Assembly: GCA_017504435.1 (NCBI GenBank)
Contig: JAFVRD010000051.1
Span: 1 to 57,179, forward strand
DNA length: 57,179 bases
Reading direction: 5' to 3'
DNA from: Lentisphaeria bacterium
GTDB lineage: Bacteria; Verrucomicrobiota; Lentisphaeria; Victivallales; Victivallaceae
Shown here: in pieces, positions 734 through 6,218 of the stretch
How the letters are laid out: each line of letters starts with the position of its first letter
Position numbering within the stretch: the first letter of the stretch is position 1
Notes under the pieces: model-generated
Told to the model about the DNA's origin: nothing
Seen by the model: the letters and a program-made list of their open reading frames with translations, nothing else
The model's database searches: none
Position numbers and translations under genes: made by a program

Positions 734-805
734 AGCAACTTTACTATACATTGTCCTCCGATGCGTTTCAAGTCTTTGTTTGGAATTTTTACAAAAAATT
801 CTAGT
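734..805 (-). repeat. 72-bp perfect inverted repeat, left copy
   Basis: The reverse complement of 734-805 is identical to 1698-1769 over all 72 positions, and the match breaks at both edges. The minus-strand reading contains CGGAGGACAATG, a ribosome site and start codon. In this copy the resulting peptide (MYSKVAEGARQDVLVACSC) stops after 19 residues. The repeat abuts the 3' end of the RHS fragment on the same strand. Confidence 0.9.
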
Positions 806-1448
806 TATCTGCATAACTGATTTGCTCCACATAGCCGTCGGATCCCGCAATGAGCGTATCTCGCCGGACGTACTCCCCGCACACGCAATTCCAATGGTTC
901 GTAAATTCAGTCGTCTCAACTCTGTTGCTTGTCGTATCCCACGCCGCACCCGGGATAGTCGCGGTGATCGTTTTCTCCCGGTCGGAGAAAAACTGCCGGT
1001 ATTGACGCCCGGTTTCTTGACCGCAAATCGTAACGATGCGCCGCCGCCAGCGCGGACTGTCTGCAGCATCGGAGCTTTCCGAACTCTCGAGTTTGGTATA
1101 GTCGTAGGTTATGACTTGGCACTGGCTTTCCGGCGCAGTATCCGCGGCATCTCCAAAGGGACTGACTTCCTTGATCAGTCGTCCGCTGCTGTCATACTCA
1201 TACTTCGTCCACTTGCCGTCAAAGTCAACCCGCTTGGCAAGTTTTCCATAGCCGTAATCGGATATGTCCGTGTAGTACTCGTAGGTCTTCACCCGCTGCG
1301 CAGGAGTCCCGTAATCAAGATACCTCTCAATGACCTTGTCGCCAAAACTGAATGGCTGGTAGAGCTCGTACTGCGTGGCCGTCACAATGCCATTGCTCAG
1401 ATTGCGAGTCGTCGGAATCGTTTTTAGATAGGCAGATTGTCCGGACAT
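801..1448 (-). pseudogene. RHS/YD-repeat protein fragment A
   Basis: The 215-residue frame carries YD-repeat character: KTYEYYTDISDYGYGKLAKR, then KWTKYEYDSSGRLIKEVSPFG and further Tyr/Asp-rich turns. RHS proteins are giant secreted or surface shells that end in variable toxin tips and normally run to well over a thousand residues, so this is a fragment. It opens with MSGQSAYLKTIPTT at 1448 and stops just inside the 72-bp inverted repeat. A frame ending at 1464 (tail VDATVASVAMTS) lies immediately upstream on the same strand and is unrecognised. A related N-terminal piece occurs on the other strand at 3763. It is probably a relic of RHS rearrangement and not a working protein. Confidence 0.7.
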
Positions 1449-1883: not shown

Positions 1884-1973
1884 AGAATGATTGGCATATT
1901 TTATAAAAAGTTTATTGTAGCAGATTGATTGTGAAATACGCAACGCATGGTAATTCAGGAGTGAATTTTTATA

Positions 1974-2669
1974 ATGAATAAAACAATCATCGTCACCGAC
2001 CTGACTCGCTTTAATACCAACGACATGGTGTGCCTTGCTGGCGTTGAACCCGAAACAGGGATGTTGATACGTCCAATGCCATATATAAATCAAGATTTTT
2101 GCGAAGAAAACAAAATTATTCCGGGATCAATAATCAGCGCAGATTTTGATCCGGTTCCCACGCGGACACCACCTCATATTGAAGATCACTGGTGGCGAAA
2201 TATAGTCAAGGCAGGCAATACCCCCTCAAGTGAGTTTTACAAATTGCTGCGTACAACAGCATTCCCATCTATTGCCTCCGGTTTTGAAATGGTCGTCATA
2301 GATAAAGTGATCCCTCCCACAGCCCCTCCCAATAAATCAATTATCACAATAAATGCTTGTGTGAGATTGCATCCAGGCTATAATGGGAATTTGCAAAAAA
2401 TTAGGGCATCCATAACAGATAATGATGGCTTTACTTTATCGTACCTGCCAATTGCAGACTTGGGATTTTATCGTTTTACGCAGAAATTGCGTATGCGCAA
2501 CGAACTACAGAAGTTGGGCGATTTTATAGACAATCAAAATGAAATATATGTCAGATTGGGGTTGAGCAGATGCTACAAGGCGGCAGATGGACGAGAAGGG
2601 TATTGGATTCAGGTAAATGGCATCTACACCTTTCCTGATTTTTGTGCCGAGTTGCGATCATATGAATAA
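1974..2669 (+). CDS. Dual OB-fold-like protein of a DUF488 cassette
   Basis: The 231-residue protein opens MNKTIIVTDLTRF and continues with VCLAGVEPETGMLIRPMPY and IIPGSIISADFDP. This layout of a short beta-rich N-terminus with a 'tRPMPYI' segment matches my memory of dual-OB (DuOB) proteins annotated beside DUF488 genes. OB folds usually bind nucleic acid; the target here is unknown. No signal peptide or membrane segment is seen, so it is cytoplasmic. The stop codon overlaps the next gene by 8 bases (start 2662), indicating one operon and coupled translation. The region is visibly more AT-rich than the flanks, suggesting transfer. The family call is moderate, and a nucleic-acid role is inference. 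Confidence 0.6.
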   Translation: MNKTIIVTDLTRFNTNDMVCLAGVEPETGMLIRPMPYINQDFCEENKIIPGSIISADFDPVPTRTPPHIEDHWWRNIVKAGNTPSSEFYKLLRTTAFPSIASGFEMVVIDKVIPPTAPPNKSIITINACVRLHPGYNGNLQKIRASITDNDGFTLSYLPIADLGFYRFTQKLRMRNELQKLGDFIDNQNEIYVRLGLSRCYKAADGREGYWIQVNGIYTFPDFCAELRSYE

Positions 2670-3282
2670 TATATATACAATTGGGTATTCTTCATACTCT
2701 ATTGAAGAGTTTATCAATGTTCTAAAACATTACCACATTGATGCAATCGCGGATGTAAGAACTCTTCCGTATAGTCAACGCAATTTTGATTTCAATAAGG
2801 ATATTTTGTCGCAAAAATTAAAGCGCCACAAAATATATTATGTCCCACTTGGATTGGAATGCGGAGCTAGACCGGAAGACGCCTCCTGTTATGTGGACAA
2901 CAAAGTAAGTTTTGAGATTTTATCTTCGACTGATTTATTTCGCCATGGTATACTGCGCTTAAGAAATGGCATGAACAAGTGTACTATCGGCATAATGTGC
3001 GCCGAGCAGGATCCTATCAGTTGCCATCGCTATATTTTAGTGGGCCGCGAATTATTAAAGTCATATCCCGGAATCGCTTTGTTTAATATTTTGCATAATG
3101 GTGAAATAGAAAAATCGAGCGACACCGATTCGAGACTAATGCATTTATATAACCTTGATACCGAGGAAATAGTTGGTTTAGGCAAAGCGTTTGATGAACG
3201 CCTGAATGAGGCTTTTTTAAGACAGTCTAGAAAAATTTCTTTTCAAAGGGATGCAGGCTTACATAAAAATAATTTGAGTTAA
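2662..3282 (+). CDS. DUF488 family protein 1
   Basis: I chose the ATG at 2662, which overlaps the upstream stop by 8 bases and gives 206 residues beginning MNNIYTIGYSSYSIEEF, the normal DUF488 start. Other family marks are IADVRTLPYSQR and the C-terminal MCAEQDPISCHRYILVGREL, where the conserved Cys and the CHR block form the presumed active site. DUF488 has been placed in the rhodanese-phosphatase superfamily and linked by genome context to nucleic-acid modification and conflict systems (recalled, not checked). A further 60 residues follow the CHR block, longer than the shorter paralogue downstream. It is cytoplasmic and part of a three-gene unit. Confidence 0.85.
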   Translation: MNNIYTIGYSSYSIEEFINVLKHYHIDAIADVRTLPYSQRNFDFNKDILSQKLKRHKIYYVPLGLECGARPEDASCYVDNKVSFEILSSTDLFRHGILRLRNGMNKCTIGIMCAEQDPISCHRYILVGRELLKSYPGIALFNILHNGEIEKSSDTDSRLMHLYNLDTEEIVGLGKAFDERLNEAFLRQSRKISFQRDAGLHKNNLS

Positions 3283-3286
3283 TATC

Positions 3287-3727
3287 ATGAACCATAAAAT
3301 TTATACAATAGGTTTCGGACAAAAAAATGCAAAATGTTTTTTCGGATTATTGTGGGCTAATGGCATTCGAAAGGTCATTGATGTTAGATTAAACAATGTT
3401 TCACAACTCGCCGGATTTACCAAAAAACAAGATTTGGAATTTTTTTTGGCGGAAATTTGTCAGTGCGGCTATGAACACCAAGCGCAATGGGCACCAACCA
3501 AGGAACTGCTTGATAGCTATAAGAAAAAACAGATATCATGGAACGATTACGAAAAAAATTTTCTTCAAATCATGAAAAAACGTAATGTTTTAGAAAGTGT
3601 TGATGCGCTATGCATATCAAATTCGTGTTTACTATGCAGCGAACCCACCCCTGAACGTTGTCACCGTAGACTTTTGGCAGAACATCTAAAGACAAAATTC
3701 CCTTCGCTTGAAATTATCCATTTGTAA
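3287..3727 (+). CDS. DUF488 family protein 2 (short form)
   Basis: The 146-residue protein starts 4 bases after its partner with MNHKIYTIGFGQKNAKCFF. It has VIDVRLNNVSQLAGFTK (the DVR motif) and ends with LLCSEPTPERCHRRLLAEHL, the Cys plus CHR(R) block. It is a minimal DUF488 fold. The two tandem DUF488 proteins share motifs but differ widely in sequence, so they are old paralogues rather than a recent duplication, and they may form a heterodimer or act on two substrates. No membrane or export signal is seen. A degraded RHS piece follows 36 bases downstream. Confidence 0.85.
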   Translation: MNHKIYTIGFGQKNAKCFFGLLWANGIRKVIDVRLNNVSQLAGFTKKQDLEFFLAEICQCGYEHQAQWAPTKELLDSYKKKQISWNDYEKNFLQIMKKRNVLESVDALCISNSCLLCSEPTPERCHRRLLAEHLKTKFPSLEIIHL

Positions 3728-3762: not shown

Positions 3763-3912
3763 ATGCCGGAGATGAGCACATATCTGAAATCCGTTGCCAC
3801 GCTCCAAGTTCTCAGCAATGGTACTGTAACCGCCGTATGATATGAGTTGCGCCAGAACTTTGCTTTCGGTGATGAGGTCATCGCCAGCGGCGACTGGAAG
3901 AACAGAAAGTGA
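3763..3912 (+). pseudogene. RHS fragment B with internal stop
   Basis: The frame reads MPEMSTYLKSVATLQVLSNG, then TVTAV, TGA at 3838-3840, then YELRQNFAFGDEVIASGDWK. Residue for residue this parallels the start of fragment A on the other strand (SAYLKTIPTTRNLSNGIVTA, then QYELYQPFSFGDKVIE). The ribosome site GGAGGCGAGAA is still visible. The copy is dead because of the TGA and stops soon after. Fragments A and B thus bracket the DUF488 cassette in opposite orientation. Confidence 0.7.
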
Positions 3913-4055: not shown

Positions 4056-5502
4056 GATAACGTCCGAGAAATTGCGCACAATTTGAAAGAGGTTGCTTGA
4101 AAAGCGACCTGTTCTCTGATTGATTATAGTTACCACACAAAAAAATCAATCAAAAGGAGAACAGGGCATGGAAAATGTAGCTCAAGAAACGGAAAAAGCA
4201 ATCTCCGGCGCGATCAAAGTCGACGAAAAAGAGATTCGGGACCACCTTGACGGGCTGGTGCGCCAGTCCGTCGAGGATACGCTGAACGCGCTGTTGAATG
4301 CCGAAGCGGATGCGATCTGCCACGCCGGTAGCTACCAGCGAACGCCGGATCGCCTGGACACACGGGCGGGGACCTATCAGCGCAAACTGCTCACCAAGGC
4401 CGGCGAGGTTGAGTTGAAGGTGCCCCGGCTTCGCAGTTTGCCCTTTGAAACCGAGATCATCAAGCGCTATCAGACCAAGCAGAGTTCGGTCGAAGAGGCT
4501 TTGATAGAGATGTACTTGGCTGGGGTGTCGGTACGCCGGGGGGAAGACATCACAGAAGCGCTTTGGGGTGCGAAAGTAAGTCCAAGCACGGTCAGCGACC
4601 TCAACCAAAAGATCTACGGCAAGATCGAAGAGTGGCGGATGCAGCCGATAACCGGCGAACATCCTTATGTCTTTGTCGATGGCGTGTATCTGAAGCGCAG
4701 TTGGGGCGGAGAAGTTCAAAACGTGTCGGTACTGGTGGCCGTCGGCGTCAATTACGAAGGCTACCGGGAAATTCTCGGCGTCGCCGAAGGCAGCCGCGAG
4801 GACAAGGAGTCCTGGAGCAATTTTCTGCGATACCTGAAAGAACGCGGCTTAAAAGGGGTGAGACTGGTCATCTCGGACAAGTGTCTCGGGCTTTATGAAG
4901 TCCTCGGAGACGTCTTTCCGGAGGCTAAATGGCAACGTTGTGTGGTGCACTGGTATCGCAATGCTTTTACTCAGTGCCCGTGGAAGCATGTCCGTGATGT
5001 CGCCGCCATGCTGAAAGCGATCCACGCGCAGGAAGATAAAGAGGCCGCGCGCGAGAATGCGGCATTAGTGACGGAAAAACTCCGAAAGCTGAAGTTGGAG
5101 AAGGTGGCGGAGTTCGTAGAAAAAAGCGTTGAAGAGACTTTGACCTACATGAACTTCCCATACGAGCATTGGAGCCGCCTGCGGACAAACAACGGTTTGG
5201 AGCGTATAATGAAAGAAATACGCCGCAGAACGCGGGGCGTCGGCAGTTTCCCGGACGGCTACTCCGCCATGATGCTGGTCGGCGCGAGGTTGAGACACAT
5301 ATCGACGACGAAATGGGGTACTCGCCAATATATGAACACTTGCAAACTTTACGAGGTGGGGATACAGTAAGATAAAGGCTTTGCCTTACAAACCGACCTG
5401 CTCCTCCGGAGCTGCACGGTTGGTCGGTTTGTTCGGCATCGCCAATGCGCGTGGAACTCTGATCCGTCAGAACCAAATGTGCGCAAAACTTCGGACACTA
5501 CC
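4056..5502 (+). mobile_element. IS256-family insertion sequence
   Basis: The element is about 1.45 kb. Its left end starts GATAACGTCCGAGAAATTGC near 4056, and its right end read inward starts GGTAGTGTCCGAAGTTTTGC at 5502. Both share GTCCGA and TTGCGCACA, typical of IS256-family terminal repeats. The transposase is intact. A strong hairpin (AAACCGACC/GGTCGGTTT) lies between the transposase and the right end. The 8 bases outside each end (CGGGCGGA and CTGTCTGG) do not match, so no target duplication is visible. Ends are placed by comparing the two termini and could be off by a few bases. Confidence 0.8.
4168..5370 (+). CDS. IS256-family (mutator-type) transposase
   Basis: The 400-residue protein is of standard length for the family. 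I chose the ATG at 4168 behind AAAAGGAGAACAGGGC over an upstream in-frame start at 4120. The DDE residues are visible as D in PYVFVDGVYLKRS, D in RLVISDKCLGLYEV and E in TNNGLERIMKEIRRRTRGVG. An N-terminal DNA-binding helix region precedes the catalytic core, and TFPEAKWQRCVVHWYRN-type residues sit where the family has its Cys/His block. The frame is uninterrupted, so the element may still be active. Its GC-rich codon use contrasts with the AT-rich DUF488 genes beside it. Confidence 0.93.
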   Translation: MENVAQETEKAISGAIKVDEKEIRDHLDGLVRQSVEDTLNALLNAEADAICHAGSYQRTPDRLDTRAGTYQRKLLTKAGEVELKVPRLRSLPFETEIIKRYQTKQSSVEEALIEMYLAGVSVRRGEDITEALWGAKVSPSTVSDLNQKIYGKIEEWRMQPITGEHPYVFVDGVYLKRSWGGEVQNVSVLVAVGVNYEGYREILGVAEGSREDKESWSNFLRYLKERGLKGVRLVISDKCLGLYEVLGDVFPEAKWQRCVVHWYRNAFTQCPWKHVRDVAAMLKAIHAQEDKEAARENAALVTEKLRKLKLEKVAEFVEKSVEETLTYMNFPYEHWSRLRTNNGLERIMKEIRRRTRGVGSFPDGYSAMMLVGARLRHISTTKWGTRQYMNTCKLYEVGIQ

Positions 5503-5516
5503 CTGTCTGGCAAGGG

Positions 5517-6218
5517 GTGCGCCAGACATCCAGACAGCTCCTGCAGGCATTCTTCGCCGAGCAGGAATGTTTGGAGTTCCTCGACTTCGAAAATGAAAAA
5601 CTCTACGAGATCCAAGATGCTTTTCGGACCTTGCCGGAAAAGGTTATCACCAAGGTCGAATCCGTCATGCGAAATGTTTTCCATTTCGCGGGAAACGCAA
5701 GTCTTCTGCTCCGAATCCTGGACGAAGCACAACACCGGTACATCAAGATCGAGGAGAATTTCGGGAAGTTGAAGACCCGCTATGATCGGGCGTTTTACAT
5801 CTATTTGCATCACCGGGACCTCTGGGAACAAACCTGCGCTTTCATGCAGGTGGACTGCCTTCCCAGCCGCCACTGGTGTCGCTGCCCGAACCTGCCGCGC
5901 AAACCGCCGATGACGGATCAGGCAACCTGCGACAATCTTGGCCGACAGATCTCCGCATTTTTCTGGCAGAAGCAGGTACGCGGAAAAAAATACCTGATCG
6001 AATACCAGCGCCGGAGCAACGGTCTGCACTATTACTTCGTCTACCTGAGCGACTATTCCAACAGCTACGAGGCATGGAGCGAACTGCGGTTGCGCCATGA
6101 TGCCCACCTATTCCAACAAGGGGAACAAACGGTATTATTACTACCAGTGTTGCGAGGACAGCAAACGCGCGGTGTAAATCTCTCATCTCTAAAACTTTGC
6201 ATGAAAATCCATGCATAA
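5517..6218 (+). pseudogene. Unrecognised gene fragment truncated by the IS
   Basis: About 230 codons are open from the IS edge. The frame continues upstream into the IS end without a proper start (YPVWQGVRQTSRQLLQ precedes the GTG at 5517). It is rich in charged helices (EQECLEFLDFENEKLYEIQD), contains a Cys/His patch (CLPSRHWCRCPNLPRK), and then KKYLIEYQRRSNGLHYYFVY. I do not recognise the family. The last 40 residues are out of frame with a better conserved reading at 6082-6177, so the 3' part is probably frameshifted or fused debris. It was probably an accessory gene of a mobile element. Confidence 0.45.
6082..6177 (+). pseudogene. Serine-recombinase zinc-ribbon remnant
   Basis: In the +1 frame relative to the surrounding open frame, 31 residues read NCGCAMMPTYSNKGNKRYYY then YQCCEDSKRAV and a stop. 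The pattern C-x-C, M-P-T, K-G-x-x-R-Y-x-Y-Y, C is the zinc beta-ribbon that follows the catalytic domain in large serine recombinases. Nothing else of such a recombinase is in the window. It is a short relic and the call rests on one motif. Confidence 0.45.

Follow-up and report, generated by a model that had tools for sequence, protein, structure and literature searches.

What does a compact, fully open three-gene cassette do amid the remains of broken genes in a Lentisphaeria bacterium, and where did it come from? The window analysed here, a stretch of 57,179 nucleotides, is one whole contig of a 2.26-Mb genome. Within it, genes A, B and C lie head to tail on one strand (1974-3727), in the adjacency that defines PDC-M45, a computational candidate system in PADLOC. 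The cassette and its surroundings comprise the following features:

801-1448, minus strand: truncated RHS-repeat gene fragment (left debris), with a sub-cut-off match to Pfam RHS_repeat (0.014) and an RHS-like YEYDSSGRL motif
1957-1961, plus strand: Shine-Dalgarno-like AGGAG, 12 bp before gene A, read directly from the sequence
1974-2669, plus strand: gene A, predicted divergent dual-OB (DuOB) protein of 231 aa, 'TDLTRF' subtype, assigned from its open reading frame, an iterated profile and a structural model
2662-3282, plus strand: gene B, putative DUF488 enzyme of 206 aa, matching PDC-M45B and Pfam DUF488
3287-3727, plus strand: gene C, putative DUF488 enzyme of 146 aa, matching PDC-M45C and DUF488, beginning 4 bp after B
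3763-3905, plus strand: short RHS-like fragment with in-frame stops (right debris), read directly, with a motif like that at the start of the left fragment
4120-5370, plus strand: Mutator/IS256-type transposase, apparently intact, likely ATG at 4168, matching Pfam Transposase_mut (9.5e-109)

An acquired cassette in a partly broken neighbourhood

A reading of the sequence alone, which preceded this analysis, had described three AT-rich genes, overlapping or abutting, that remain intact while everything around them is broken. The first half of this description is borne out: the three frames are open, A and B overlap by 8 bp (B starts at ATG 2662, the mechanical open reading frame start at 2617 being too early), the gap between B and C is 4 bp, and the GC content of the cassette is 38.6%. 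The term 'junk island' is also fair, given the RHS debris on both sides and the broken stretch at 5.4-6.2 kb, but 'everything broken' is overstated, because the transposase appears intact (its residues 31-393 align to profile positions 10-371 of 379 with no stop) and ordinary intact genes follow from about 6.58 kb on. A DNA search found the transposase as a single copy in the genome. The segment between it and the first intact gene (5381-6218) looks like broken coding sequence and has no Pfam match. Within the first 6.6 kb of the window, the cassette has no other recognisable defence gene around it.

A perfect 72-bp inverted repeat (734-805 and 1698-1769; arms 100% identical and 892 nt apart) encloses most of the left RHS fragment. 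It was the sole other genome match that a DNA search returned for the first 6.3 kb of the window, and may reflect a segment that can invert, a duplicated RHS tip or a feature of the assembly.

The GC3 values of A, B and C (0.41, 0.35 and 0.32) lie below the window mean of 0.54 +/- 0.065. Gene A was found in only one of 34 species of the genus, and a strong B, in a 145-genome sample of the phylum, occurs just in the window genome and in an Opitutales genome. From the AT-rich composition together with this patchy presence in genus and phylum, we conclude that the cassette is horizontally acquired.

Gene A encodes a predicted divergent DuOB protein

Protein A scores 15.3 bits against Pfam DuOB (PF22557), below the curated cut-off of 27 bits, and gave zero matches at E<=1 to the PADLOC models, including all four PDC-M45A models. 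A classical DuOB relative (locus L023) matches all four of these models, which identifies PDC-M45A as DuOB. Sister A proteins also fall under the PF22557 cut-off, one reaching 23.7 bits (L002) and another giving no match (L027). An iterated profile seeded with the window protein recovers 70 of the 70 hits of a classical DuOB seed, and the alignment of the window protein with classical DuOB proteins displays the invariant residues C20, A22, G23, R33 and E70 in common.

The predicted structure of A (pLDDT 93.5) resembles OB folds, namely telomere end-binding protein alpha (Z 8.1, rmsd 1.9 A over 76 residues) as well as SSB and PriB (Z near 7); the match concerns the first domain, residues 1-92, and its structural Z-scores are middling (about 7-8). 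Foldseek placed tandem-OB or single-stranded DNA (ssDNA) binders at the top of its list: p202 HIN1 (E 4.6e-4), Teb1 and RPA. Joined to the family by iterated profiles and a confident OB-fold model, protein A is thus a predicted distant member of DuOB, and the earlier description of a dual-OB-like first protein appears right although its Pfam score is weak.

The subtype to which the window protein belongs is marked by 'TDLTRF' near the N-terminus and a 'GxWxQxNGIYxFP'-like C-terminus. Its closest relatives are found in Opitutales (L030, 41% identity) and Desulfoprunum (L033, 42%), followed by proteins from Mailhella and Pseudodesulfovibrio (32%). Because PADLOC's PDC-M45A models do not detect A, we class the window cassette as a variant and not as a plain PDC-M45 member; as these models miss the TDLTRF subtype, copies of this kind are undercounted.

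Genes B and C encode two DUF488 proteins with conserved active-site blocks

DUF488 is a large family for which we know of no established reaction. Protein B matches PADLOC PDC-M45B (PDLC04657) at 7.7e-59 and 197 bits, and C matches PDC-M45C (PDLC04658) at 8.3e-61 and 202 bits, which identifies each as the respective component. Both also exceed the 22.2-bit cut-off of Pfam DUF488 (PF04343), B with 61.3 bits (1.8e-16) and C with 80.5 bits (2.1e-22); C additionally matches DUF488-N3a at 7.9e-11. The predicted active-site block of B reads C113-A-E115...C121-H122-R123, and the motifs of C are D32-x-R34-LNNxSQLAGF...C114-LL-C117-SE...C125-H-R-R. Both proteins hold a complete Cys/Glu/Cys-His-Arg block. 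The sequence-only reading had noted two DUF488 proteins with conserved DVR and CHR blocks; D32-x-R34 is present in C and CHR in both.

Across the cassette, the closest relatives of the window genes are 41-57% identical, and conservation was compared over 59-78 relatives per protein. Of the 56 positions of C with at least 85% conservation among 78 homologues, 54 are kept, including T7, G9, D32, R34, C117, E119, C125, H126 and R127. B retains most conserved positions, but has N142 where all 70 other B proteins share a His. Protein A keeps nine of 13 conserved positions, with Ala161 where 96% of relatives carry Thr. In this sense the cassette appears intact: its frames are open and mostly conserved, and activity is putative.

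It might be argued that the window cassette is a recently arrived passenger in debris whose function is already being lost, as the surrounding RHS debris and transposase, the substitutions at the invariant His of B and the conserved Thr of A, and the existence of a broken relative with A and B each split (L071) would suggest. We consider this very unlikely in view of the three open frames, the starts and overlaps that resemble those of intact relatives, and the retention of nearly all active-site residues.

The model of C is likewise confident (pLDDT 92). Its nearest folds are CbiL/diphthine-synthase-type methylases and PTP-fold phosphatases (Z 6.5-7.7), and a Foldseek search with this model returned no significant match (none with E below 1e-3). 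Burroughs and Aravind (2023) are said to place diphthine-synthase-type and PTP-fold families with DUF488, a grouping with which the middling-Z fold matches of the C model are only consistent. At these scores, a place for C in the rhodanese-phosphatase superfamily, marked by a Rossmannoid fold with the active-site Cys loop, is tentative. PDB sequence searches with B and with the C profile found no solved DUF488 relative.

The three genes form a unit across genomes

If the cassette is a functional unit, its genes should be found together elsewhere, and the sequence-only reading had itself named a neighbour survey as the means of refuting the idea. The idea survived this survey. In 68 of the loci of the best 80 C homologues from GTDB genomes, the three genes are all adjacent, a fraction that, the loci having been picked by similarity to C, does not estimate pairing among all DUF488 proteins. 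The order A-B-C accounts for 41 of the 68 and B-C-A for 20; the remainder are variants, including a C-DuOB fusion and split copies. Natural fusions were seen in three combinations: RecQ-DuOB, B-C and C-DuOB. In a further 10 of the 80 loci, C stands without partners, mostly amid housekeeping genes.

The triad extends over more than a dozen phyla, archaea included, comprising at least Verrucomicrobiota, Desulfobacterota, Planctomycetota, Pseudomonadota, Acidobacteriota, Cyanobacteria, Chloroflexi, Firmicutes, Actinobacteria, Spirochaetes, Patescibacteria and methanogenic archaea. Moreover, the genes co-vary: the pairwise distance matrices of A, B and C correlate (r 0.45, 0.45 and 0.77, values that none of 2000 permutations reaches), which is partly expected from common vertical descent.

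A two-gene relative occurs in three loci from Verrucomicrobiota (L013, L014, L015). There, a protein of about 300 aa with a C-terminal DUF488 adjoins a 277-310-aa protein that weakly matches the A profile.

The triad recurs in and beside defence loci

The genomic contexts of the full triad point to defence. BREX-like operons hold the triad between PglX and PglZ (L024, L025, L046, L069), and in the Opitutales genome from the window's phylum it immediately follows a SIR2-HerA pair. An Allochromatium plasmid carries it inside a type III CRISPR locus, flanked by csx16 and csm6, and on an Agrobacterium plasmid its neighbours are CBASS genes, an ImmA/IrrE pair and an integrase. The 122 close neighbours matched 282 PADLOC families, as against nine for 40 other window genes, numbers that give a contrast and not a rate since one protein can match many models.

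Six IMG/VR contigs carry relatives, two of which (L024, L025) are clearly BREX loci. A role as a phage-encoded counter-defence was rejected, as neither A nor C has a match among 50,697 phage records. C-type proteins are carried by 120 plasmids. The view that the cassette itself is common on plasmids had to be corrected, because the plasmid records that were opened hold mostly A-C-DUF4326 or C by itself, with A-B-C on three of them, one of which has a putative A gene annotated as hypothetical only.

Lone C proteins and DuOB fusions point to DNA and possibly to its repair

A second group of contexts concerns DNA and damage to it. Three loci encode DuOB joined to a complete RecQ helicase with DEAD, RQC and HRDC domains, a fusion that points to DNA. 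On five plasmids, a lone C lies adjacent to or near uvrA or uvrB in formaldehyde-resistance islands that carry frmR, frmA, fghA or related genes (L115, L116, L122, L123, L125). These plasmids come from Aeromonas (IncP), E. coli (IncC and IncX5), A. pittii and Comamonas, and four of the five are typed as conjugative. Another lone C lies 0.9 kb from a gene for replication-associated recombination protein A. A literature search on formaldehyde-resistance plasmids with frmR and UvrA found no paper. Together, the RecQ-DuOB fusions and the lone C genes beside uvrA or uvrB argue that DNA, or damage to it, is the substrate.

The main rival to the defence reading is accordingly DNA repair. The cassette would then be a portable module in which DuOB and DUF488, together with excision repair or RecQ-type helicases, clean up DNA ends that are damaged or crosslinked; it would be mobile since invading or stressed DNA is damaged, and not to kill phage. 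A lone C among housekeeping genes, or beside uvrA, uvrB and formaldehyde genes, fits repair better than defence, and the RecQ fusions, the recombination-gene neighbour and the OB-fold model of A agree with it. The full triad, however, recurs inside BREX, type III CRISPR, CBASS and SIR2-HerA neighbourhoods, and a patchy presence, in one of 34 species of the genus, is typical of defence genes and not of repair genes. We therefore regard repair as a serious but doubtful account of the full cassette. The earlier proposal, a defence or nucleic-acid-modification unit that spreads as a cassette, gains support from the recurrent defence neighbours and the PADLOC candidate listing; its defence half draws on neighbourhood evidence, and the plasmid uvrA/uvrB contexts back the half concerning nucleic-acid processing or repair at least equally.

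DUF4326 replaces B in E. coli islands

DUF4326 takes the place of B in chromosomal islands of E. coli and on small plasmids; the copy from E. coli SC487 has it fused to mSLOG. DUF4326 has been proposed to remove terminal phosphates from the ribose of ADP-ribose (ADPr) products (PMC9503650). DuOB-DUF488-DUF4326 forms the main cargo of E. coli integrase islands located next to icd and beside ffs (L128, L129, L130), and a DNA search matched such islands in five of 5426 E. coli genomes. Natural E. coli examples of this cassette are found in NZ_CP145663 and NZ_LR778149. One species from the genus of the window organism has a very divergent DUF488 gene that abuts an ADP-ribosylglycohydrolase-like gene (L110, 14561-16011; noted by eye), and this pair resembles described ADPr-phosphatase pairs.

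The replacement of B raises another possibility, that the DUF488 pair acts on a soluble nucleotide (of the NAD+/ADP-ribose type or another signal) that neighbouring defence systems make or consume, with DuOB binding the nucleotide or the effector, so that the cassette would regulate the systems in which it lies. The swap for DUF4326, often fused to nucleotide-sensing SLOG, the activity proposed for DUF4326, and the nesting of the cassette with cyclic-nucleotide or NAD systems (CBASS, csm6, SIR2) would all fit such a role. Nevertheless, the cassette also nests in BREX, a system without such a signal, DuOB is fused to RecQ helicases, and the A model resembles ssDNA binders; we consider a soluble substrate unlikely.

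A proposed nucleic-acid-directed defence module

In what we regard as the best explanation, and hold with middling confidence, the cassette may well be a mobile PDC-M45-type defence module directed at nucleic acids and carrying a divergent variant of DuOB. This reading is supported directly by the unity and co-variation of the genes, the OB fold in the model of A, the retained active-site residues, the defence association and the mobility; we infer the DNA ligand, the chemistry and the anti-invader outcome. In such a module, protein A, with its predicted tandem OB folds, would bind ssDNA, the end of a DNA molecule or an abnormal structure in DNA that becomes exposed as an invader enters, and would position the pair of DUF488 enzymes, B and C. 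These could then use their Cys-His-Arg active site, set in a Rossmannoid phosphatase-like fold, on a DNA terminus or its adduct. Processing of the end or adduct might stop the invader or set off a partner defence system, and the module may work alone or as an add-on to other defence systems.

Relation to known systems

The cassette is of a kind already known, as the PADLOC candidate PDC-M45 and from a published prediction. PDC-M45 has the same three domains in the same A-B-C order as the window cassette (A being DuOB, and B and C DUF488), but the window A is unmatched by any of its four A models. Literature searches for DuOB, PDC-M45 and DUF488-N3 returned nothing relevant, and no paper naming PDC-M45. 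In 2023, Burroughs and Aravind reportedly predicted that DUF488 and DuOB take part in nucleic-acid modification in conflicts; the window has both domains in common with this prediction, and its C model likewise matches PTP phosphatases and diphthine synthases.

The window cassette shares its tight operon of DuOB and a C-type DUF488 with the DuOB-DUF488-(SLOG)DUF4326 islands found in E. coli and on small plasmids, but these have DUF4326 in place of B and integrase islands as carriers. PADLOC PDC-M19A also contains DUF488, and B and C match it at 3e-15 and 4e-16; these matches are much weaker than those to PDC-M45, and PDC-M19A belongs to a different system. As far as the literature searched shows, the PADLOC-missed A subtype, the set of nested contexts, the association of lone C with excision repair and formaldehyde resistance, and the exchange of B for DUF4326 in E. 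coli are new.

Implications for the DUF488 family

For the family as a whole, we tentatively suggest, as a possibility short of our preferred reading, that the C-type DUF488 is a new class of DNA-end or adduct enzyme that plies two trades. Alone, it may act with UvrA or UvrB in aldehyde-damage repair on formaldehyde-resistance plasmids; when joined by DuOB and by another DUF488 or a DUF4326 protein, it may serve as an add-on that is nested in, and extends, BREX, CRISPR, CBASS and SIR2-HerA loci, the window DuOB belonging to a subfamily that current models miss. Handles on this biology are offered by the conserved three-protein unit, the natural fusions, the SLOG-DUF4326 swap for B and the E. 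coli island, and a further one by the recurrent tie of a lone DUF488 enzyme to excision repair and formaldehyde resistance.
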